10,486 nucleotides of DNA. Source: an uncultured Ruminococcus sp. (GTDB lineage: Bacteria > Bacillota > Clostridia > Oscillospirales > Ruminococcaceae). Location of the stretch: contig CADBQZ010000234.1 of the NCBI GenBank assembly GCA_902796865.1, positions 1 through 10,486 of the forward strand. The letters run 5' to 3'. Both the position numbers and the translations under genes were made by a program. The notes under the pieces are model-generated. The model was not told the DNA's origin and ran no database searches. It was given only the letters and a program-made list of their open reading frames with translations. Shown here in pieces: positions 1-10,486 of the stretch (positions are counted from its first letter, which is position 1; the number at the start of each line of letters is the position of its first letter).

Positions 1-90
1 ATGTACCGCTTCATACTTCTTGTCGAGCAGTGTGCTTAACGTGGTCTTGCCGCAGGCAGAAGCACCTATAAAAACATATATCTTATCCAT
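1..90 (-). CDS. P-loop nucleoside/nucleotide kinase-like protein, N-terminal fragment
   Basis: Only the first 30 residues are in the window; the gene runs off the left edge. The start reads MDKIYVFIGASACGKTTLST, a beta strand followed by a Walker A loop (G-A-S-A-C-G-K-T-T). This is the usual opening of small P-loop kinases that phosphorylate nucleotides or small molecules. The ATG (90-88) overlaps the stop codon of the upstream phosphoesterase gene in the string ATGGATAA, so the two are probably translationally coupled in one operon. An AGGAGG lies six bases upstream of the ATG. The exact substrate cannot be told from this fragment; guanylate-kinase-like or other AAA-type kinases are possible. 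The P-loop call is secure, the family is not. Confidence 0.75.
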   Translation of the reverse strand, partial: MDKIYVFIGASACGKTTLSTLLDKKYEAVH

Positions 91-1054
91 TTAAAACCTC
101 CTGTTCACTCATCTTACGTTCAAGGTAATCACGGCATGTCTTTTCTATAACAGCTCTTGCCTCCGAAGCACTCATATCCAGCTCACAGCAGGCTGCATGA
201 AAGTGACCTCCGCCGCCGTGTATCCTGCATATCTCATCTACCGAATAATCTCCGCTGCTCCTCATTGAACATCTCATTCTTCCGTCAGGGAGCTCTCGTA
301 TCGTAATTCCGATACACACTCCCTCGATCTGCTCAACAAGGCTATTTATGCCTTCAATATCTGAATCAAGCACACCTGCTGTTTCAAGATCCTTCAGCAT
401 GATGACACCCGTCACAACCTTATCATCACAGGTGAAATGAAAGCTTTCACGCAGAATGTTTTCAATTTTCATTCGTCCAGCAGTCTTTACAAAAGTATTG
501 ATTCTACTTATGTGATAAATATCAGCCCCTGCTTTTGCAAGATCGGCGGCAATCTCAAAGGTTTGCGCTCTGGTATCTGTAGTTCTGAAACAGAGCGTAT
601 CAGTCACGATAGCAGTATAAAGCAAACTTGCGATCTCTTTTGTGACGGTAACACCCATCTCTTTGATGATCTTGTAGATTATCTCACTGCAGGCTCCGCA
701 ATCGGTCTCAACATAACGGTAATCGACCTCGTCAAAGGTGTTGTGATGATGGTCTATGCAGAATGTGAAATTCTTGTCCGAATATGTGCCGACTCTCTGA
801 CGGGAAGCGGAATCAATGGCTATATATACAGGATAGTTGACCTCATCAAGCCTGATCTTATCCGTCATATATCGGTGAATACGAGGGGTATCATCCTGCC
901 CTTTGACGGTACACTTCTTTCCGATAGACTGTAATGCAAGAGCCAATGCAAATGCCGAGCACACACAGTCACCGTCAGGTCGGATATGATAGACCACACA
1001 GTAGTTATCGTATTCTTTGAGCTTTTGAGCCATTTCTTTAATAGATATGTCCAT
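83..1054 (-). CDS. DHH/DHHA1 family phosphoesterase (NrnA-like oligoribonuclease / pAp phosphatase)
   Basis: A predicted cytoplasmic metal-dependent phosphodiesterase of 323 residues, the usual length of NrnA-type enzymes, which hydrolyse short RNA oligonucleotides and, in many members, 3'-phosphoadenosine 5'-phosphate. The DHH motifs are visible in order: H23-x-R-P-D27-G-D29, the acid of IDSAS (D81), the signature D101-H102-H103, and D152 in the TDT segment. The C-terminal DHHA1 substrate-binding domain carries GGGGH at about 280-284. I chose the ATG at 1054 and not the one at 1063, because the AAGGAG ribosome site abuts the first ATG directly but sits nine bases from the second. It is the first gene of a leftward operon with a P-loop kinase, overlapping by 8 bases. 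Transcription probably starts near 1218. Substrate choice (nanoRNA, pAp or pApA) cannot be read from the sequence. Confidence 0.9.
   Translation of the reverse strand: MDISIKEMAQKLKEYDNYCVVYHIRPDGDCVCSAFALALALQSIGKKCTVKGQDDTPRIHRYMTDKIRLDEVNYPVYIAIDSASRQRVGTYSDKNFTFCIDHHHNTFDEVDYRYVETDCGACSEIIYKIIKEMGVTVTKEIASLLYTAIVTDTLCFRTTDTRAQTFEIAADLAKAGADIYHISRINTFVKTAGRMKIENILRESFHFTCDDKVVTGVIMLKDLETAGVLDSDIEGINSLVEQIEGVCIGITIRELPDGRMRCSMRSSGDYSVDEICRIHGGGGHFHAACCELDMSASEARAVIEKTCRDYLERKMSEQEVLNG
97..102 (-). promoter_or_regulatory. Ribosome binding site of the P-loop kinase gene
   Basis: AGGAGG on the minus strand, six bases before the ATG at 90-88. It lies inside the last codons of the preceding phosphoesterase gene, which supports the overlapping start. 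Confidence 0.8.
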
Positions 1055-1063
1055 TGACAACAT

Positions 1064-1318: not shown

Positions 1319-1347
1319 TTGACAAAAACCAAAAACCGTGCTATATT
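1319..1347 (+). promoter_or_regulatory. Strong sigma-A promoter of the kinase-nuclease operon
   Basis: TTGACA (1319-1324), a 17-base spacer and TATATT (1342-1347). The -35 is perfect and the -10 has one mismatch. The transcript would start near 1354 and have a short leader of about 35 bases. A second TATAAT at 1354-1359 has no -35 at proper distance. The region 1070-1367 otherwise holds no gene beyond the leader-peptide candidate. Confidence 0.8.
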
Positions 1348-1376: not shown

Positions 1377-1382
1377 AGGAGG
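1377..1382 (+). promoter_or_regulatory. Ribosome binding site that decides the start of the kinase-nuclease gene
   Basis: AGGAGG six bases before the ATG at 1389. The earlier in-frame ATG at 1368 lies upstream of this site with no ribosome site of its own, and only about 14 bases after the predicted transcript start, so 1389 is the likely start. Confidence 0.85.
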
Positions 1383-1388
1383 CGGAAA

Positions 1389-4300
1389 ATGAAAAATAAT
1401 CGAATTCTACTTACCCCCGGTCAGATGATAACAGCCGAGAATAAAGAACAGGGCGTTGTTCAGGCATTTACAATAAAACGCATATTAGGGGAAGGCGGTT
1501 CTTTCTGTGTTTATTCTGTCGTTGACAGCTACGGTAACAGCGGCACTCTCAAGGAATATTATCCGTATTCTCTTAGTATGTTTCTTGAACGTGCTGATGA
1601 TGCAAGTATTATAACAAAGAATATCAATACGAAAAAAGCTCTTGAACGTGGACGGATCAGGATAGAGAAAAGCTACCGCAAAATAAGAGCTATTCTTTCA
1701 GAAAATGAGTCTACAAGAAATTTCTTTGTTTCAGGAAAACTGTTTTATGGTGTAAACAATACACTCTATATTTATTATGAAAATGATATGATCGGCAATT
1801 CGTTCGATCGTTATCTCTCTTTGTCTGATTTTAAGAATCTTGAACAAGAAAAAAAGCTTGTAAATATAATGGAGATCATTTCAGATCTGGCAAAGAAGAT
1901 CGATGCAGTAAACAACACAGGCGATGGGTATTATTTCTTTGATATCACACCGTACAATTTCATGGTTCTGTCTGCTCCTTCGGGAGAGCCGATCAACAAT
2001 AATACATATCTGGTAGATATAGATACGATCACAAGCACTGATGAGATAATTAATCGGACAAGCACTGCTGTGGGCAGAATAGAAACAGGCTTTCATTCCG
2101 AGCTTATACTTGCGGATATGGACTGTCTGCGAGAGAATCTTGAGCTTGCAAAGGAGGCAGATGCATACTCTGTTATGGCTGTACTTTTTTATGCTTTAAC
2201 AGGAAAAAAACTGAACGAAAACAGAAACGAGATAATTGACTGTTTCAGAAAAGCAAAAATGATAAAGCAAAGTAAGATATTAAGTGAGGAACAGAAAGAG
2301 CACCTGATAGCACTTTTGGTATCATTATATGAAAAAACAGCTTTGAATCATTTGACGAATCGAAATTACAGACCGTTTTCATGTGAGGATATCATAGTCG
2401 GGCTTGACGAAATAATAAGATTACTTACAAGGATAATGCTGAATAATAACGAGGATCAAGGCAGCGGTACACTTGCCAACAAGGACGATTCTGTTAATGC
2501 AGAGCTTATGTTTTCAAATATGCTATATAAATATCCATTGTATGACTATACAAAAGGAGACGAGATCAGAGTCCTCATTCTTGGTTTTGGCGTTTATGGC
2601 AAGGCTGCCTTTGGTGCTGCTTTTTCAAATGGTCAGATATTACAGGAGAACGAATCCGTCTTTAGCTACAGAAAACTCAGGATCGCACTGGTTGAGAAGA
2701 GTATAGATTTTCAAAAGTTTTTTAATGAGAAGATGCCCGGTCTTGCAGGATTTGCAGATATTTCACAGGATTCATGGAGCGATAATGAGAGCGAAAGCTT
2801 GGGCAATAACATATATGCTGATATTTCTTATCATAACAACATCGTGACGGCGAAAAACATAAAGGATATTGTGGATCGTTATCCGGCTGATTATATTATT
2901 TGTGCAATGGATAATGACGATTATAATCGTACGATAGCGAATAAAATCTCGTCTATTTGTAAAGGCAGATGTTTTATTGGCTGCATACAAACCCATAGAA
3001 TGAGCGATGGGGATAGCAGCGAGTATAGGAGAAAAGTTTATCCGATTTCACCAATCAGCAAGGCGGAGGAGATCTATTCAGGACTGATGAGACTTGCACT
3101 GAATTATCATATCCTTTACGATAAAAACAAACACAGACGAACAAATATTAATTCACTTAAAGCAAGCTTCAATGATAAAAAGAAAGATTTTTATTCGTAT
3201 CAGTCGAATTTTGCTGCTGCATTAAATCTGAAGTACAAGCTACACAGTCTAAATATAAAATGGAGAGAAGACGACCGCTATTCTATGGCAGAAGAATTCA
3301 GCAAGACATTACAGGATAAAAATGCAATGCCATACTTGATAGATATGGAACACAGACGCTGGGTTGCAAACAATCTTGTACAGGGGTATCTGCCTCCTGA
3401 ATCGGTGGATAATAAGTACCAATATGACTATTCATTTATGTTTAAAGTCAACAATGTGCGGGTGACCGAAAAGACTTCTCAAAAGTACAGTGTTCCGCTT
3501 TATCATACCGCAATGGTATCATCAGATTGTGATACAGGTTCTTGTATACCTTATGGACTTGATTGGGACAAAGATGACTGGTATGATGATCCGTCATATC
3601 TTTCAGGTCTGGACGAACTTGACAAGGTCTCTCTGCTTGTACATCATTATCTCAGGGATAACAGGGATCATTATGATGAGAAATGTGATTATCATTTTGA
3701 TAAACTGGACGAAATGTTCAAAAATGATCAGGAGCTTTATGAAAGCTTCAAGGAATTAAAAGACCTCTATATGCTTGTCAAAAAGGATATTAAGTATGGA
3801 GCGGAAAACCACGGTTATGAGTCAGAACGGTTCATAAGTATAATAAAAGCCAGAAAGGATCAGAGCAATGATCCTGATTTCATAAAAATGTTTGAAGACG
3901 GTATAGATCATCTGGAACAAATATGCAGTCTGCTGTTTGTTCGCCTCGAATACCTGACATATAAGGATTATAAAAGCTATGACCGCCTGTTTATAAAGAA
4001 CATTCCATTTATACTCAAATACAGTGATTTTGCATTGATCCAGAATATTAGGGACGCTCAAGATAATAATGTGCTGTGGGGACTGAAAAATCCGCTTGAG
4101 TTTGATGCGTCCAGAATAATATATTTGGAGATGATAGAGACCGACTTAAATATGACGATCAGATCTGTGCATTCGCAAATGAGAAGTTATGTTAAACAGT
4201 TCAGTAATATTCTGGTGTTCCAAAAATGCAGAAGATTTTTTGATGATGTTAAGCTTCACATCATAATATACGACAGAGATTCCAAGTTTGATATTCTTGA

Positions 4301-5762
4301 ACTAAAAAACATAATAGCAGATGAGTGTGACAGACATTTGATCGACAGTAAAAGAATAATTGTACACTTGATAAACAAGCTTTCCAATCTTGACAGCATT
4401 GTAAAAAGAATTATTCCTAAAACCGAAAGTGTAGTACCGATCAATGGTTTTAAAAAGTCATCTGTGTTTTATAGAATACTAAGAGATATGAAGACGAAGG
4501 AGATATTTGATTACAGAGATTGCATTATTCATAAGAGTCTGAATATCCGTGAGTATATGTCGCTTTACGACTCGGCGGTAATGCAAGCAAATCAAGCGAT
4601 CAATGAGACTTTTGATTATTTAACTATGTGGTCTTTGTTTTCGAGAAGATATATCTATGAAGGTATACAGGGATATCAGAGCATTGAGCCTGCTGCGATA
4701 TGGAACCAGACCTGTCAGATGATCAATCAGTCTTTAAGAGGAGAAACTCTGTTGTGCGGTATAGTGAATCCTGTGATAAACGGCACATACGATCAGTTCT
4801 TTTCAAGGAACTATCGGTTGGGTGGAGTGGAAGAAACAATACGAGAATTCTTATTAACTGCACAACGATATAATCTTATTGCAAATCCACGGATCATAAA
4901 GCTGAATGATAATGAATCTGTTGAACCAGTATATTCGGTTCGTTTTAATTATTCTTTGGATATATACCCTGACTATAAGAATGGTAAGCAAAAGGATCTT
5001 GGAAATAAAATTGATGAGGTAATAACAAGAATTATAAACAAAAAGCCGTTTGAGATCATTCAGTCTGATACGGAGAATCCCCAATATTTTGATTATTATA
5101 TCATCCGTAAAAGCTTTTATCTGGATCCATATAAATCAGATGAAAAAAATAGCATTAATTATAATGCCAAGTATATAGAACGCTTGATCGATCAGCTTGT
5201 TGCAAATCGTTTTATCATCAGGACAACAGAAGCAAAAGGTGATACCACTATAACCCGTTACAGTATTGAGAACAGACGCTTACTTGATATCCTTTCTAAA
5301 GGAGGAGCACTGCTGGAATACTTTATTTACTTTGCATTAAAGCATTCAGGTGAGTTTTCTCAAGTGGCTCAGAGTGTTTTGTTCAGGTGGAATAAAAATG
5401 ATATGGCATCATCCATAAACGAATTGGATGTTTGTTCCGTTAAGGGAATGAAAGCAATGTTTGTATCTGCAAAAGCTTGCCAGAAGATCGAAAGAGAAAT
5501 GATCAATGAGATATATACTTATTCATCTCAATTAGATGCCATCCCGGTCCTTGTTTCGGGACATGGCGGTACAGATAAGTTGAAAACAATTAATATGGTC
5601 AAGGATATGGATAATATGTATTTGATTTGTTATGATGATTTTCATTCGGAAAACATACCGATGAACGGAGGTAATAAATTAGCACACAGATTAAAAATGT
5701 CAGCAGAGGCAGATGAGAAGCTTCTTTCAGAAAAACTGATTGATGTGTTCAATAATAATTAA
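1389..5762 (+). CDS. Multidomain kinase-like / TrkA-N-like / RyR-like / PD-(D/E)XK (Card1-like) nuclease fusion
   Basis: A 1457-residue protein, first gene of a two-gene operon. Residues about 20-345 resemble a protein kinase: glycine loop G34-E-G-G-S38, lysine K55 in LKEYYP, catalytic-loop D185-I-T-P-Y-N190 (HRD written FFD), metal acid D210 in VDID, and D258 of helix F. Residues about 393-545 look like a Rossmann/TrkA-N domain, with G399-F-G-V-Y-G404 and the strand ending CAMDND. Residues about 630-770 carry an RyR-like pattern (M-E654-H-R-R-W658, then LDELDKVS). Residues about 870-1050 alternate strands and helices (RIIYLEM, LHIIIYDRD, RIIVHLI, then INGFKKSS) and may be a divergent CARF-like fold. 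From about 1258 a winged-helix-like stretch leads into a nuclease-like end: GG-A-L-L-E1310-Y, N-E-L-D1347-V, V-S-A-K1362. That resembles Card1/Can2 (DUF1887) nucleases, though the usual acid of (D/E)-x-K is serine. I see no signal peptide or membrane segment, so it is probably cytosolic. Domain calls are by eye. The combined role, a ligand- and phosphorylation-controlled nuclease effector, is inference. Confidence 0.75.
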   Translation: MKNNRILLTPGQMITAENKEQGVVQAFTIKRILGEGGSFCVYSVVDSYGNSGTLKEYYPYSLSMFLERADDASIITKNINTKKALERGRIRIEKSYRKIRAILSENESTRNFFVSGKLFYGVNNTLYIYYENDMIGNSFDRYLSLSDFKNLEQEKKLVNIMEIISDLAKKIDAVNNTGDGYYFFDITPYNFMVLSAPSGEPINNNTYLVDIDTITSTDEIINRTSTAVGRIETGFHSELILADMDCLRENLELAKEADAYSVMAVLFYALTGKKLNENRNEIIDCFRKAKMIKQSKILSEEQKEHLIALLVSLYEKTALNHLTNRNYRPFSCEDIIVGLDEIIRLLTRIMLNNNEDQGSGTLANKDDSVNAELMFSNMLYKYPLYDYTKGDEIRVLILGFGVYGKAAFGAAFSNGQILQENESVFSYRKLRIALVEKSIDFQKFFNEKMPGLAGFADISQDSWSDNESESLGNNIYADISYHNNIVTAKNIKDIVDRYPADYIICAMDNDDYNRTIANKISSICKGRCFIGCIQTHRMSDGDSSEYRRKVYPISPISKAEEIYSGLMRLALNYHILYDKNKHRRTNINSLKASFNDKKKDFYSYQSNFAAALNLKYKLHSLNIKWREDDRYSMAEEFSKTLQDKNAMPYLIDMEHRRWVANNLVQGYLPPESVDNKYQYDYSFMFKVNNVRVTEKTSQKYSVPLYHTAMVSSDCDTGSCIPYGLDWDKDDWYDDPSYLSGLDELDKVSLLVHHYLRDNRDHYDEKCDYHFDKLDEMFKNDQELYESFKELKDLYMLVKKDIKYGAENHGYESERFISIIKARKDQSNDPDFIKMFEDGIDHLEQICSLLFVRLEYLTYKDYKSYDRLFIKNIPFILKYSDFALIQNIRDAQDNNVLWGLKNPLEFDASRIIYLEMIETDLNMTIRSVHSQMRSYVKQFSNILVFQKCRRFFDDVKLHIIIYDRDSKFDILELKNIIADECDRHLIDSKRIIVHLINKLSNLDSIVKRIIPKTESVVPINGFKKSSVFYRILRDMKTKEIFDYRDCIIHKSLNIREYMSLYDSAVMQANQAINETFDYLTMWSLFSRRYIYEGIQGYQSIEPAAIWNQTCQMINQSLRGETLLCGIVNPVINGTYDQFFSRNYRLGGVEETIREFLLTAQRYNLIANPRIIKLNDNESVEPVYSVRFNYSLDIYPDYKNGKQKDLGNKIDEVITRIINKKPFEIIQSDTENPQYFDYYIIRKSFYLDPYKSDEKNSINYNAKYIERLIDQLVANRFIIRTTEAKGDTTITRYSIENRRLLDILSKGGALLEYFIYFALKHSGEFSQVAQSVLFRWNKNDMASSINELDVCSVKGMKAMFVSAKACQKIEREMINEIYTYSSQLDAIPVLVSGHGGTDKLKTINMVKDMDNMYLICYDDFHSENIPMNGGNKLAHRLKMSAEADEKLLSEKLIDVFNNN

Positions 5763-5783: not shown

Positions 5784-8700
5784 TTGAATAATTATGAATA
5801 CACTTCGCTGTTTTCTGATAATTTTGATAATGTTTTTGTTCCATATCTAAGTGTTGATAAGCTGGACAGCATACGACAAAAGCTGAAGGATAAACAAGAA
5901 TGGGTAAATGATTTCAAGGTGTTGGTCAGAAAGGCTTTTGAGTATGATTACTATCGTGAAAACGGAGATTTCCCTGCGATAAATGAAAATAGTGAAAACG
6001 AGTATATTAGAAAAAGGATCCGAAATGTCAGGAGTAATCATTCAGGAGTAATCAGAGAAAAAGAAAGAAAACTCCAGGAAATTGATGTGAGCAAAACAGA
6101 AACAATCAACACTGTGATAAAACCTCTTTTAAAAGATGATAATGGCTATTCCTACCTGTGCAGGATTCTGGAGCTTAAAAATCACAGCGAAATGACAGCT
6201 CAATACAGTAGTCTTCTGGAATACAGCCTTAGTGACAGTTGGCTCAAACCGAGAGAATATTTTGAGAGATATCTTATACCGAAAAAAGATCAGGAAATGC
6301 ACACGGATCATCTTTCAAAAACTAAATTTCTGGTAGAGCTGACGAGAGCATTGTGCAGCTGTGCTGAAAGAAATACGGGGAAATGGTTGACCAGTGCCCG
6401 CCCCAAATTCTGTCTTCACGATCTCACAGCTCTTTTTGACCATGGGATTGAGAATTATTCCGACAGAGAGATACTTGAAATATTCTCACAGCATCTTGTA
6501 CAGGCGGAAATGGATAAGGATTATATACTGAAAACACTGAACGGTATAATAAATGACATACGTTCAAAGGACAATCCCTCAAAACAAAAGATCATAGTAG
6601 CGGAACAAATTGAGAAGATATTATCAGATAATTCAATTGTTTCATCAAGTGAGACTTCGGTCGAGTTTGGGCTGGAGTCCTTTGCTGAGATTGAAAAAAG
6701 AATATATGCACTCAGGGATGATTACGAGAATTCGATCAAGCCTTTTATAACGGCTATCGAAAACTTTAAGAAAAACAGCATTGTTATGCAGAAAGACTAT
6801 GTTGTTTACACCCTAAAAAATATAATAAAACCAAAGAGTGCTAAAGCACAAAAATGCCTTGAAGAGATAATATGCATTTCCGAAATGGATTTTGATGAAG
6901 CCAAATCGAAAGGAGCAAAGCTGTATCACGATTTCATCGATCAGGAGAAACAATGTCTGAAATGCAAGACTGAAAAATCAAATAAAGTGGATAATGCCTT
7001 GAAAAAAGAATTGACAGAGCTTGAGAAATTCAATAAGAACTGCACATATGCGGAAGAATCAGTCGATAGCAGTAAAAACACAAATAATAAAAGCAATTCA
7101 AAAAATGGCAACGAGCATTATGATGAGATAAACTTTCGTATCGTATATTACTATGCCAAGGCATACAGCTTTTTATATCCGCATGATGAGCTAATGCATA
7201 GAGTGTTTGTTAAGCTTGACGGGATAAATGACAGTGCAAAGCTTAATGAGCCATATAAGCATCTGATATATCTGTTGGCAGCTGACAGGACAGATGAATG
7301 TCTATCGTCGGTAAAAACGATCAATGCTCTGAGAGAGTTCATTTACGACTGCTGTTTTGCACTCAGAGAGAAACGAGATCGTGAGGCTGTGCAATATTAT
7401 CGTTTACAGTTGGATAGGTTTATCCCAGCAGAGAAGCGTAATTCGGATATCATCTCACAATGGTATAAGACTTTGAATGAAAATCGGAACTTCAATTATT
7501 CAGAGCTTGAAGTATTCAGAGGAGATATAGGCAAATTCAAGCAGTCCTGTAATGATGAAAGTTTATCAAAAGGATTAAGAAGTATTCTTAAAAGCATTAA
7601 TGAATATGAGCGGATCTCAGAGACCGATAGAATAACTGAACAGCTTTTTACCTTTGCTTTTGAACAGCCTGCGGTTAATTACAGATCTGTTGAAGAGTTG
7701 GTTTATTTCAGAGTTCTCGAAAACCACGGCAGCATAAAAGATGCTAAAGAGCCGATCATGAGACTGTGGAAAAAGAAATCGAGCAAGGAAAAGATATCAG
7801 ATAATGCTGAAAATGAACGGTTTACTGTAGACTATCAGGATATGTATTACAGTGAATTTGCATATTACGATGATATTGATAAAATGATAGATGATCTTGA
7901 GAAAAACGGTTTTGCAGTTGTCAAGCTGTCGGCTGCGGATATTCGCAAGACAGCTAATGCATTGTTCAATTATTTAATAAACAGTGTTGTCGTGCTCCTT
8001 TTGAACAGCAGTAAAAATGAGTCTGTCCGTATGATGCTGGATTCATATAAGTGTAGAATGAAAGATGACAGCAAAACATATAATTTACTGATGAATAGCT
8101 TGAACGAAACCGGCTATGTTAAAGTCTACAATATTATTTCATCAAAGCAGCAGGCTGTTTCATACAGCTTGCTTGAGGAAAATGCTTTAAAGGATTTATG
8201 TAATGATAAAACTGATATTGATGGTATATTGGATGAAATAAAGAAAGGGCTGTTCAATATATTACATCCAAGCTTTGTTAAAAGTATCGATACTTATACC
8301 GCAATGAATGTAAACGATCTGTCTTTCAAGGCACCGTTAGTAAGCAGAGCTTCACTTATTAAAGCTTATACAGCGATGAGCATACTTTCTGGCACAGACG
8401 ATCTAACAGCATTTAAGAACACCATAAACCGAATCCTTGAACTGTGCGGCTTTGCCCAGATGGATAAGAAAAACGCCTTGGACTGTTATATGATTGCCGT
8501 GTACTATTATCAATTAAATTTGGGCGATACGGTTTTGATCAGTAAAGGGTATAAGGGGTGCAAAGAAAAACTCGACCAGCTTAAAGGCAAGCTGATGATA
8601 ACATTCCCTGATGATCTAAAATCACAGCTTGATAAGGGTACAATGTTTTTATCGGAAATAGACTATGAGAATGATAAGGTTTCTTTTAGTGACTCGGTAC

Positions 8701-9851
8701 ACTCGAATATCTGGAACAAGTATATTAAAAAAGTCAGTTTAAGAGATGCAGATTATATCTATATTCCATACTATGGGTTCGTATTGAACGATGAAGGCGG
8801 AGAAAGATATTTGCTCGTTTTAGTTTATCCTGTAAATATCAGCAATGAGGATAATTCTGAAAACAGAAAAGAGCCTGAAGCATGCTGGGGTATATTGTTT
8901 GATTGCATCAGAAATGAACAAGGCATTGAAAAAGTGTTTAATCTGGAGAATTTATGCATAAGTCCGCAGAATGCACATATCAAAGATCGTAAGTATATCG
9001 TTTATATTCCTCATAAAGAGTTCTTCAGGATAGTAAATGCTGTTTCACCATTCAAGAAGATAGTTGCAGCAGATAGTTATCCTATTTTAACTTTTCATTC
9101 ATTTGAGATAAAGAACATGCAAAATAAGGATAATATACTATGCTTATTTGCGGTTGGTCATACAGATGATGGAACCCGACAAATCCTGGGCGGATGGACC
9201 TTTGTAAAGGAGAAGTTTAATAAAAACTGCTGGGAAACTATTTTTTCGGATCTGAAAGAAAAGGGCATCACAGATGTAGGACTTGTATGCACGGATTTGC
9301 CAAATAACTTTGAACAAGCCTTGGAGAAAGAGTATCCAAAAGCGAAAGCACAATGCTATAGCTATATGATACAGCTTATTTCAGAGAACAATCTGAAAAG
9401 ATTCTGCACCAAAACTCCAAAGACCAGGATTAATTATCTTAATGATGAAGACAAAGAAAAGAAGCCCCACAAAATATTATTAAAAGAGCTCATAAAAATA
9501 CAAAGAAACTTGATATGTGCAGATAAGGAAAAGGATGCAGAGAAGTTGTGCGATAAATTGCTGCTGAAGAATAAGGATCCATATTATGATCAAATCTGGC
9601 ATGGAGAAGCATTTAATAAAGAAAAGGTATTGTCATTCTATGAGCTGAATAAAACAACTCGTGATTATCTGTTAAAAGAATATAAGAATGATAGTGACCG
9701 CTCAATTGTACTTAAAAAAGTTAAATTGAAAATCAAAAGTCAGATCGAAGCAGGTGTTATGGATAAAGGCGATGATATCAGTATCGAAACAGCGGAGAAA
9801 ATGCTTGGAGAAATACTGCTGAAGTATTCAAAGGAAATAAGACCTCATTAG
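5784..9851 (+). CDS. Large unknown protein with a C-terminal degenerate IS256/Mutator transposase-like domain
   Basis: A 1355-residue protein with a TTG start, 21 bases after gene 1 and cotranscribed with it. The first roughly 1000 residues match no family I recognise. They are mostly charged and probably helical, with a low-complexity Asn/Ser/Lys linker around 420-445 and a helical stretch after it. Residues about 1095-1345 resemble the RNase H-like core of IS256/Mutator transposases: a strand (LTFHSFEIK), then LFAVGHTDDG, ILGGW, a W-containing helix, LKEKGITDV, the strand ending C-T-D1171, a helix ending EYPKA, Q1190-C1191, and much later Y1286-E-L-N1289. By this alignment the first catalytic Asp is His1105, the second is kept (D1171), the final Glu is Thr1292, and the family histidine after the cysteine is Tyr1194. 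The domain is therefore probably not a transposase but a nucleic-acid-binding or structural leftover. I see no terminal inverted repeats. The likely role is as partner of the upstream nuclease fusion; what it does is unknown. Confidence 0.7.
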   Translation: MNNYEYTSLFSDNFDNVFVPYLSVDKLDSIRQKLKDKQEWVNDFKVLVRKAFEYDYYRENGDFPAINENSENEYIRKRIRNVRSNHSGVIREKERKLQEIDVSKTETINTVIKPLLKDDNGYSYLCRILELKNHSEMTAQYSSLLEYSLSDSWLKPREYFERYLIPKKDQEMHTDHLSKTKFLVELTRALCSCAERNTGKWLTSARPKFCLHDLTALFDHGIENYSDREILEIFSQHLVQAEMDKDYILKTLNGIINDIRSKDNPSKQKIIVAEQIEKILSDNSIVSSSETSVEFGLESFAEIEKRIYALRDDYENSIKPFITAIENFKKNSIVMQKDYVVYTLKNIIKPKSAKAQKCLEEIICISEMDFDEAKSKGAKLYHDFIDQEKQCLKCKTEKSNKVDNALKKELTELEKFNKNCTYAEESVDSSKNTNNKSNSKNGNEHYDEINFRIVYYYAKAYSFLYPHDELMHRVFVKLDGINDSAKLNEPYKHLIYLLAADRTDECLSSVKTINALREFIYDCCFALREKRDREAVQYYRLQLDRFIPAEKRNSDIISQWYKTLNENRNFNYSELEVFRGDIGKFKQSCNDESLSKGLRSILKSINEYERISETDRITEQLFTFAFEQPAVNYRSVEELVYFRVLENHGSIKDAKEPIMRLWKKKSSKEKISDNAENERFTVDYQDMYYSEFAYYDDIDKMIDDLEKNGFAVVKLSAADIRKTANALFNYLINSVVVLLLNSSKNESVRMMLDSYKCRMKDDSKTYNLLMNSLNETGYVKVYNIISSKQQAVSYSLLEENALKDLCNDKTDIDGILDEIKKGLFNILHPSFVKSIDTYTAMNVNDLSFKAPLVSRASLIKAYTAMSILSGTDDLTAFKNTINRILELCGFAQMDKKNALDCYMIAVYYYQLNLGDTVLISKGYKGCKEKLDQLKGKLMITFPDDLKSQLDKGTMFLSEIDYENDKVSFSDSVHSNIWNKYIKKVSLRDADYIYIPYYGFVLNDEGGERYLLVLVYPVNISNEDNSENRKEPEACWGILFDCIRNEQGIEKVFNLENLCISPQNAHIKDRKYIVYIPHKEFFRIVNAVSPFKKIVAADSYPILTFHSFEIKNMQNKDNILCLFAVGHTDDGTRQILGGWTFVKEKFNKNCWETIFSDLKEKGITDVGLVCTDLPNNFEQALEKEYPKAKAQCYSYMIQLISENNLKRFCTKTPKTRINYLNDEDKEKKPHKILLKELIKIQRNLICADKEKDAEKLCDKLLLKNKDPYYDQIWHGEAFNKEKVLSFYELNKTTRDYLLKEYKNDSDRSIVLKKVKLKIKSQIEAGVMDKGDDISIETAEKMLGEILLKYSKEIRPH
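6028..6054 (+). repeat. Two-copy 13-base direct repeat inside gene 2
   Basis: TCAGGAGTAATCA occurs at 6028-6040 and again at 6042-6054, a repeat unit of 14 bases. It lies early in gene 2, near codons 82-91. Because 14 is not a multiple of three, loss or gain of one unit would shift the reading frame. Confidence 0.7.
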
Positions 9852-9908: not shown

Positions 9909-9952
9909 GCAGCGTTTGTTTTCTAAAAAGAAATTCAAACGCTGCGTTTTTT
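9909..9952 (+). terminator. Intrinsic terminator of the two-gene operon
   Basis: A perfect 10-base stem, GCAGCGTTTG (9909-9918) with CAAACGCTGC (9936-9945). It can be extended inside by TTTC/GAAA, and TTTTTT follows at 9947-9952. The T-run is on the plus strand only, so it ends the rightward operon. Its T-run touches the stop codon (9953-9951) of the converging phosphatase gene. The 57 bases between the gene 2 stop and the stem hold nothing else I can support. Confidence 0.9.
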
Positions 9953-10486
9953 ATTGTTTAGGCGAAACAGAAATGATGGTAGTATCATCAGGGTACATAA
10001 AGGAATCAAAATCATTCCAATCAGTTGCATTAAGAACAGCTTCTTTGAATTTCTGATTTCTTCTTATCATTACTTCAAAACCATCACTGCAAAGCAATAG
10101 ATTATCTTTTATCAGTGTTCTGAAGATATGACATTTTTCGATAGCTTCATTGCTGTTAATAAACGTGTTTTTCAATTTGTTCGGATTGGTGTGTCTATAC
10201 AATGTTTTTGACGTGTATTCATATATGAAACTGTCACCTATTTGCAGAATAGTGGCTTGTTCAGACTGCATATTCAACAAGCACAGTAATAGAGTGCAGC
10301 AGTAATTGTTATAATCGTGTCTTTTTTGTTCTGCTTTTTCTTTCAGGCATTGTTGAATGAAAAATATGGTTGAAGATATTATATGTTCATCATCAGAGTT
10401 TGTTATTATTTCACAATTATTGACCCAGTTCTCAACGGCAGCTGAGCAAGCAGTAAAAGATGCTTGTTTACTGTTAAGATATCCGC
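9951..10486 (-). CDS. PP2C/PPM-type serine/threonine protein phosphatase, C-terminal part
   Basis: The gene enters from the right edge; 177 codons and the TAA (9953-9951) are visible and the N-terminus is missing. The frame stays open to the edge, so a TTG or ATG near 10280-10269 is not its start. Motifs fit the C-terminal half of PP2C phosphatases, which remove phosphate from Ser/Thr with two metal ions. In order: a CCTLLL strand, a strand ending I-G-D-S (codons near 10233-10238), LLLCSDGF (near 10080), and the closing P-D-D-T-T-I-I-S-V (near 9970-9985), where the Asp binds metal. The N-terminal DG motif lies outside. Spacing is typical but divergent, and no membrane segment is visible. It converges on the kinase-containing operon with about 100 bases between stops. 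It may reverse phosphorylation by the kinase-like domain of gene 1, or belong to another operon to the right. Confidence 0.75.
   Translation of the reverse strand, partial: GYLNSKQASFTACSAAVENWVNNCEIITNSDDEHIISSTIFFIQQCLKEKAEQKRHDYNNYCCTLLLCLLNMQSEQATILQIGDSFIYEYTSKTLYRHTNPNKLKNTFINSNEAIEKCHIFRTLIKDNLLLCSDGFEVMIRRNQKFKEAVLNATDWNDFDSFMYPDDTTIISVSPKQ

Follow-up and report, generated by a model that had tools for sequence, protein, structure and literature searches.

A kinase-fronted protein with RyR-like, CARF-like and nuclease domains on a Ruminococcus contig is probably a previously undescribed anti-virus effector

What does a bacterial protein do that joins, in one chain of 1457 amino acids, a protein-kinase-like domain, a TrkA-N Rossmann domain, a ryanodine receptor (RyR)-like domain, a CARF-like domain and a Card1/Can2-type nuclease, in that order? 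Its gene (1389..5762, + strand) lies in what we call the window, the entire 10,486-base contig CADBQZ010000234.1 (C234) of an uncultured Ruminococcus sp., whose assembly (GCA_902796865.1, here G000) comprises 1.77 Mb in 276 contigs and is 89% complete. We found the same core encoded at 22 distinct loci, window included, and the protein probably acts against viruses, as an effector not described before that a signal from TIR-type immune enzymes switches on. The original prediction, made from the letters of the window, had named kinase-like, Rossmann/TrkA-N, RyR-like and Card1-like nuclease segments; these were borne out, and the stretch left unnamed before the nuclease is the CARF-like domain. 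Numbering residues from the ATG at 1389, we placed on the + strand the kinase-like domain at residues 1-368 (1389..2492; K55, D185, N190 and D210 kept), the TrkA-N/KTN Rossmann domain at residues 371-557 (2499..3059, by fold), the RyR-like domain at residues ~561-757 (3069..3660; E654-H655-R-R-W658, H706, D742 and D745), the CARF-like domain at residues ~878-1050 (4020..4538, by fold only) and the PD-(D/E)xK nuclease at residues ~1258-1402 (5160..5594; E1310, E1345, D1347 and K1362 kept, with S1360 in place of the Glu of the ExK motif).

The original prediction had proposed a search for other proteins of the same order and their gene neighbours, and this search produced the 22 loci, 18 of them with a kinase. 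Among 197 genomes of the window's family, 19 matched and four encode the long core (G000, G168 and G113 with the kinase, G190 without it). We then scanned one genome per species for 84,980 species using a four-member alignment, yielding 19 confirmed loci, 17 of them new, and searched 398 genomes of the phylum, which added one further locus, in G442. This phylum search with alignment A1 matched 137 of the 398 genomes; beyond G000 and G442, the matches listed cover only the kinase, the nuclease or a short stretch, and were dropped. The 22-locus counts leave out L055 and L068, which are duplicates of L021 and L023. The effector of L064, present as three frames, was compared piecewise, and L024 and L064 are outside alignment A2; alignments A5 and A6 comprise 16 members each, and the tree was built with FastTree from 21 sequences, L064 excluded. 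Genes in the flanks were called by a longest-frame rule (at least 70 amino acids) and grouped into neighbour families by phmmer links at an E-value of 1e-4, and part of the flanking proteins was scanned against Pfam.

By annotated taxonomy the loci are spread over Oscillospiraceae and other Clostridia, Selenomonadaceae, Synergistaceae and one planctomycete, and a gut or rumen site is named for 8 of the 19 scan-locus genomes. Members share 18-23% identity with the window protein, which is the most divergent copy and on its own matches no Pfam model; despite this low identity, family profiles recover kinases, ryanodine receptors and Can2/DUF1887 nucleases, and the alignments place the Rossmann, RyR and CARF parts in every unbroken copy. 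The effector was not confirmed in viral contigs (57 pattern matches, none upheld), nor found in plasmids with the window and L071 proteins as queries. The broken copy, at L064 (4162-7930, +), is divided into frames of 671, 87 and 488 amino acids, by decay or assembly error, and has an RyR gene and its genome's only TIR match alongside.

The predicted structure of residues 878-1457 is a full CARF-nuclease fold like that of VC1899, Can2 and Card1 (predicted local distance difference test, pLDDT, 68; predicted template modelling score, pTM, 0.63; compared with VIA-align), the CARF assignment resting on fold and the sequence profile being significant over the nuclease only. PADLOC CARF_PDDEXK models match the C-terminus of the window protein (best E-value 6.6e-11). 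The nuclease residues E/E/D/E/K are complete in 17 of the 22 members and degenerate in five, which the tree distributes over at least four lineages (window, L021, L056, and L022 with L066). Passages of PMC7969007 report for Can2 (TsuCan2) that E302A/K304A and E276A/D278A abolish activity. Judged by its residues, the window nuclease may be weak or dead, since S1360 replaces the Glu of ExK. Card1, Can2, Cdn1 and VC1899 align over most of their chains with the CARF-like and nuclease halves of the effector, which differs from them in this substitution, in the kinase, TrkA-N and RyR-like domains added in front, and in having no linkage to type III CRISPR: Csm1/Cas10 exceeded its cut-off in one of 20 effector genomes, not the window's, and fell below it in ten more (Cmr2 not tested). 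No CRISPR cyclase is thus linked; the original prediction had noted no CRISPR genes in sight.

The RyR-like domain may point to the signal. H655, W658, H706 and D742 are present in 22/22 members and D745 in 20/22. According to passages of a 2026 preprint (PMC13232231), phage RyR-domain proteins (RyDEP among them) bind or cleave TIR-made 2'- and 3'-cyclic ADP-ribose (2'cADPR and 3'cADPR), RyDEP through the ligand residues H75, W78, H100 and D117. HMMER aligned the family EHxRW motif and the His of HxCIV with the same residues of RyR3, the alignment stopping before the Asp. Searched against the PDB, the RyR-segment profile matched nothing but ryanodine receptors (16 of 16 matches at E-values up to 10). 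The same profile, run on 268 neighbourhood proteins, ranked all seven stand-alone RyR proteins first after the effectors, apart from two others, a 1047-residue protein of L067 ahead of the seven and one PP2C among them; hhalign of the segment to a stand-alone RyR protein gave, for one pair, an E-value of 4.6e-5 and a probability of 68. VIA-align hardly covered this part of the effector model, and the RyR-like call is sequence-based. For the preceding domain, it matched residues 371-557 to the TrkA-N/RCK Rossmann fold. Pairs of RyR and TrkA-N domains were reportedly noted in nucleotide-centred conflict systems by Burroughs and colleagues in 2015.

Two observations concern other RyR proteins. 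The 1047-residue protein of L067 (14325-17468, -), encoded beside a TIR gene and matching no Pfam family, shows a second stretch of RyR-like sequence (residues 881-985; E-value 4e-9 with the family RyR profile) and is perhaps another RyR-type effector. In the stand-alone RyR proteins (alignment A3), Thr occupies the position of the phosphate-binding H100 of RyDEP in 7/7, with H-x-x-W and Asp kept at RyDEP spacing, a difference that may separate sponges from cleaving enzymes.

We next turn to the flanks, where TIR genes adjoin the effector in five of the 22 loci (L063, L064, L067, L069 and L071) and small stand-alone RyR genes in seven (PF02026 E-value 6e-32 in L058); in L024 the flank is hardly covered for either neighbour. 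In the 19 scan genomes, 14 of the 57 TIR matches over cut-off fell in effector flanks against ~0.45 expected, and 5 of the 19 scan loci had a TIR gene in the flank (P = 4e-5). Stand-alone RyR genes gave 7 of 15 copies in flanks against ~0.11 expected (P = 5e-12), each of the seven being the sole copy in its genome. Among the 16 remaining loci with a searched genome, 14 have TIR elsewhere in the genome. TIR occurs in 17/19 effector genomes vs 50/197 genomes of the window's family, a rough comparison, with a baseline of one family and 19 genomes from several; within that family, all four effector genomes have TIR (P = 0.004). At L069 (2365-4602, +), two TIR genes stand directly 5' of the accessory gene described below and the effector, one with two TIR-like stretches and the other a TIR-VWA fusion.

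The window's own genome has two TIR genes, TIR352 and TIR-Sel1, side by side on the 3.9-kb contig C174. TIR352 is a full-length homologue of the TIR protein beside the L067 effector (E-value 7e-75), and TIR-Sel1 of that beside the L071 effector and its RyR gene (E-value 3e-224). Over its length, TIR352 was found in 1 of the 197 family genomes, the window's own (two others share the TIR domain alone), as was TIR-Sel1 at E-values up to 1e-20. Thus two TIR genes that are rare in the family, and whose homologues adjoin the effector elsewhere, occur in one genome with the window effector. The same genome yielded no PF02026 match. The frame end that precedes the TIR pair (C174 1-270, L085) is reminiscent of an Eco47II-type restriction enzyme.

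The N-terminal kinase belongs to a set of genes that comes and goes. Pfam Pkinase matched 14 of 20 members, the window protein not among them, and the kinase family profile matched PDB kinases (best E-value 5.9e-11). The window copy reads FFDITPYNF where most relatives read HRDIKPSNF, thereby losing the H and R of HRD and the catalytic-loop Lys. The K, D, N, D set is complete in 15 of the 18 kinase-bearing members, window included; L065 and L069 have Arg for Lys, and L064 has Glu for the last Asp. Four of the 22 members (L023, L067, L070 and L071) have no kinase, and the same four are without two further genes. The first encodes an accessory protein of ~520-1100 amino acids, located upstream of the effector in 16/22 loci (split in L053 and truncated at the end of the L024 locus), that is, in 16 of the 18 kinase-bearing loci vs none of the four kinase-less ones (P = 0.002). 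Four accessory proteins scanned gave no Pfam family over cut-off, and a nearly all-helical model from L058 (pLDDT 81) found no PDB relative (best Foldseek E-value 1.3). The second is a PP2C-type phosphatase gene, present in 12/22 loci, 11 of them with the gene between accessory and effector; we checked the calls against Pfam in the window, L058 and L063. The window's PP2C gene (9951..10484, -; Pfam E-value 1.3e-13), truncated by the contig end, stands downstream on the opposite strand, convergent with the gene that follows the effector (ORF2), and resembles the PP2C genes upstream of relatives' effectors (best E-value 6.9e-8, to that of L024).

In the tree, the kinase-less L071, with an effector of 1027 amino acids, branches with the kinase-bearing L058 and L062 (support 0.998). 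Given this position within a clade of kinase bearers, loss or movement of the kinase module took place more than once. Because the Rossmann, RyR and CARF parts are in every unbroken copy while four members lack the kinase module, we therefore take the core to be a receptor plus a CARF-nuclease, and kinase, accessory and PP2C to be an optional control module, sometimes perhaps the output.

From these data we infer a ligand, a direction of control, a target and a role in immunity. Upon phage infection, a TIR enzyme would make an ADP-ribose-type signal, which the RyR domain would bind through H655, W658, H706 and D745; binding would release the C-terminal CARF-nuclease half, and the released nuclease would degrade DNA or RNA, so that phage growth or the cell would be halted. 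Together with the accessory protein and PP2C, the kinase at the N-terminus would set the threshold or relay the signal by phosphorylation, and stand-alone RyR proteins would turn the system off by binding or cleaving the signal. Because its nuclease has no ExK Glu, the window copy might have a weak output, or its output might be the kinase or ORF2, which is probably co-transcribed. We give about an even chance to this scheme of a nuclease effector that is gated by an ADP-ribose signal, whose kinase/phosphatase module is optional and which, in some loci, is shut off by RyR proteins. The original prediction of a nuclease effector gated both by a ligand and by phosphorylation agrees with it in part: the fit extends to the RyR residues, to neighbouring TIR and RyR genes and to the linkage of kinase, accessory and PP2C, but a TIR-made ADP-ribose signal is likelier than cyclic oligoadenylate, despite the CARF-like domain, the kinase is optional, and the nuclease motif of the window is incomplete. 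A more elaborate version, in which the effector acts as a logic gate that reads ADP-ribose-type and cyclic-nucleotide signals (by RyR and CARF, respectively) together with phosphorylation and, perhaps, NAD(H) or ATP at TrkA-N before it engages the nuclease, is a tentative possibility that we consider doubtful.

Several findings weigh against the main scheme. On the window contig, TIR, RyR and accessory genes are missing beside the effector and the nuclease lacks the complete E, D, ExK site; the TIR pair of the genome lies on a separate contig. No TIR gene was found in the examined flank of 16 loci, and in two effector genomes (G605 and G610) TIR gave no match at all. Unrelated systems gather in defence islands, a tendency that the tests on TIR, RyR and kinase genes ignore along with the kinship of the genomes. 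The RyR assignment has soft points as well: the matches to the PDB are weak (best whole-sequence E-value 0.011, best single stretch 0.98), the stand-alone RyR proteins were reached only at E-values of 0.02-0.41 among the 268, and the reverse profile, built from stand-alone RyR proteins, puts three effectors first and misses the window's segment. No member reached the gathering cut-off of PF02026 (L023 scored 13.3 against 27.4 bits, the window gave no match, and 0/20 members matched at E-values up to 0.01); since this cut-off is unmet we term the domain RyR-like, on profile evidence that is weak but specific. Only the H-x-x-W spacing equals that of RyDEP, H706 and D745 following at 48 and 39 residues vs 22 and 17.

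The same RyDEP residues catalyse signal cleavage according to passages of PMC13232231, and by analogy the effector's RyR domain might destroy the signal rather than sense it. The protein would then cleave or sequester ADP-ribose signals, much as phage RyR proteins do in those passages, and restrain TIR immunity. We regard this as quite improbable: the fused nuclease, with a complete active site in 17 of the 22 members, argues for an executing role, and the small RyR proteins of seven loci could serve as the sponge. The CARF-like domain could also be the real receptor, a cyclic oligonucleotide activating the nuclease as in Card1, Can2 and Cdn1 and the RyR and Rossmann parts having a structural or regulatory role. 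That reading is unlikely given the single Csm1 match over cut-off and SMODS over cut-off in 2 of the 20 effector genomes (Cmr2 and other cyclases not searched, flanks partly scanned), and given a first CARF strand and loop that have diverged from the family in the window.

Phosphorylation might instead be the trigger, with the accessory protein or the kinase sensing the phage, the kinase phosphorylating the effector or phage or host proteins, PP2C resetting the system and the ligand domains tuning it, comparable to Pgl/BREX-2, MADS and PD-T4-6. Kinase, accessory and PP2C are co-inherited, and PP2C stands directly upstream in 11 of the 21 non-window loci. The kinase is present in all five members with a degenerate nuclease. 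Of the PADLOC models of defence kinases, those of PD-T4-6, MkoA and mad6 hit L021 and L022, the two kinase-bearing relatives scanned, and that of PglW hits L022; PglW is the kinase name of BREX-2/Pgl, mad6 of MADS and MkoA of Mokosh. From these the effector kinase differs in being fused to RyR-like, CARF-like and nuclease domains and in its accessory protein without Pfam or PDB fold match. We hold a phosphorylation trigger to be rather unlikely. In the four members without kinase, accessory and PP2C, the nuclease motif is complete and the Rossmann, RyR and CARF domains are retained, so the kinase is not the core trigger of the whole family, and the window kinase is without the H, R and K of HRDxK. 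Far less probable still is a housekeeping or stress protein with no immune role, for instance in potassium- or NAD-linked regulation, which the TrkA-N fold would suit: the effector is rare and patchy (4/197 family genomes), its nuclease domain is of the Card1 type, and NACHT, Sel1, TIR and HamB-like helicase genes lie near some members.

How would an ADP-ribose-gated nuclease effector relate to described defence systems? Thoeris pairs the TIR protein ThsB with a signal-gated effector, and its effector types are SIR2-SLOG ThsA, macro-TM and caspase-like. The family resembles it in the TIR genes beside five of the 22 effectors and in RyR residues that would fit a cyclic ADP-ribose receptor, and it would operate much as Thoeris does, with a CARF-nuclease as effector. 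It falls outside Thoeris, however: Pfam found none of the SIR2, SLOG, macro and caspase domains in 20 members (E-value up to 0.01), TIR is not adjacent in the window, and an RyR-like domain would serve as receptor and a nuclease as output. With RyDEP and the RyR domain R12 (PF02026) it shares the H-x-x-W, H and D ligand residues and, in seven loci, neighbouring stand-alone RyR genes. RyDEPs, as described in PMC13232231, are small proteins of phages and act by cleaving or sequestering the signal, whereas here the RyR-like domain, too divergent for Pfam, lies inside a host nuclease protein. We found no description of the kinase/TrkA-N/RyR/CARF/nuclease architecture in the open-licence literature, which leaves uncontradicted the earlier claim that no described protein places a kinase in front.

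The family offers a host side to the phage RyR proteins, a conserved RyR-like pocket within a nuclease effector that in some loci stands beside TIR and small RyR genes. If the proposal is right, a nuclease output and a phosphorylation layer would be added to TIR immunity; it also bears on whether cyclic ADP-ribose is read by this pocket in animal ryanodine receptors. On the logic-gate version, RyR domains would be host receptors of TIR signals with a dedicated RyR off-switch, akin to what ring nucleases are for type III CRISPR, and the RyR proteins of phages would be captured counterparts of host RyR domains.

The remaining features of the window surround the effector gene. A promoter-like site, TTGACA-17-TATATT (1319..1347, +; 11/12 consensus letters), lies 5' of it, in a region holding six such sites vs 1.6 expected from shuffles, and an AGGAGG ribosome-binding site (1377..1382, +) serves the ATG at 1389; the frame is open from an ATG at 1368 and its stop is at 5762. 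ORF2 (5784..9851, +; 1355 amino acids, TTG start) begins 21 bp 3' of this stop and is a possible partner of the effector in the same operon. Its residues 1089-1195 resemble the core of IS256/Mutator transposases (NCBIfam E-value 9.5e-15), the remainder being without assignment; possibly a defence gene has here acquired a domain of transposase type. No full-length relative was found among the 197 family genomes, where the transposase-like part alone matches in 18 other genomes, and none in viral contigs. We rejected the idea that ORF2 is a disguised accessory protein, with an hhalign probability of 17 and an hmmsearch with the accessory profile that did not return it at E-values up to 10. At L021 (13142-19901, +; complete in L055, 14241-21186), where the nuclease is degenerate, two DEAD-box helicases follow the effector and may belong to its operon, the first matching HamB (Hachiman) models (E-value 2e-23).

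Where ORF2 and the PP2C gene converge, a long-looped inverted repeat accompanied by a T run (9909-9952) lies between them and has the appearance of a terminator; a terminator scan with loops up to 8 did not return it. On the other side of the effector, a divergent DHH/DHHA1 NrnA-like gene (83..1063, -) is probably outside the system. DHH enzymes break down small nucleotides, and a role in signal removal is conceivable, or the adjacency is chance; a phmmer-linked DHH-type relative adjoins the system at L022 as well (14031-14984, -).

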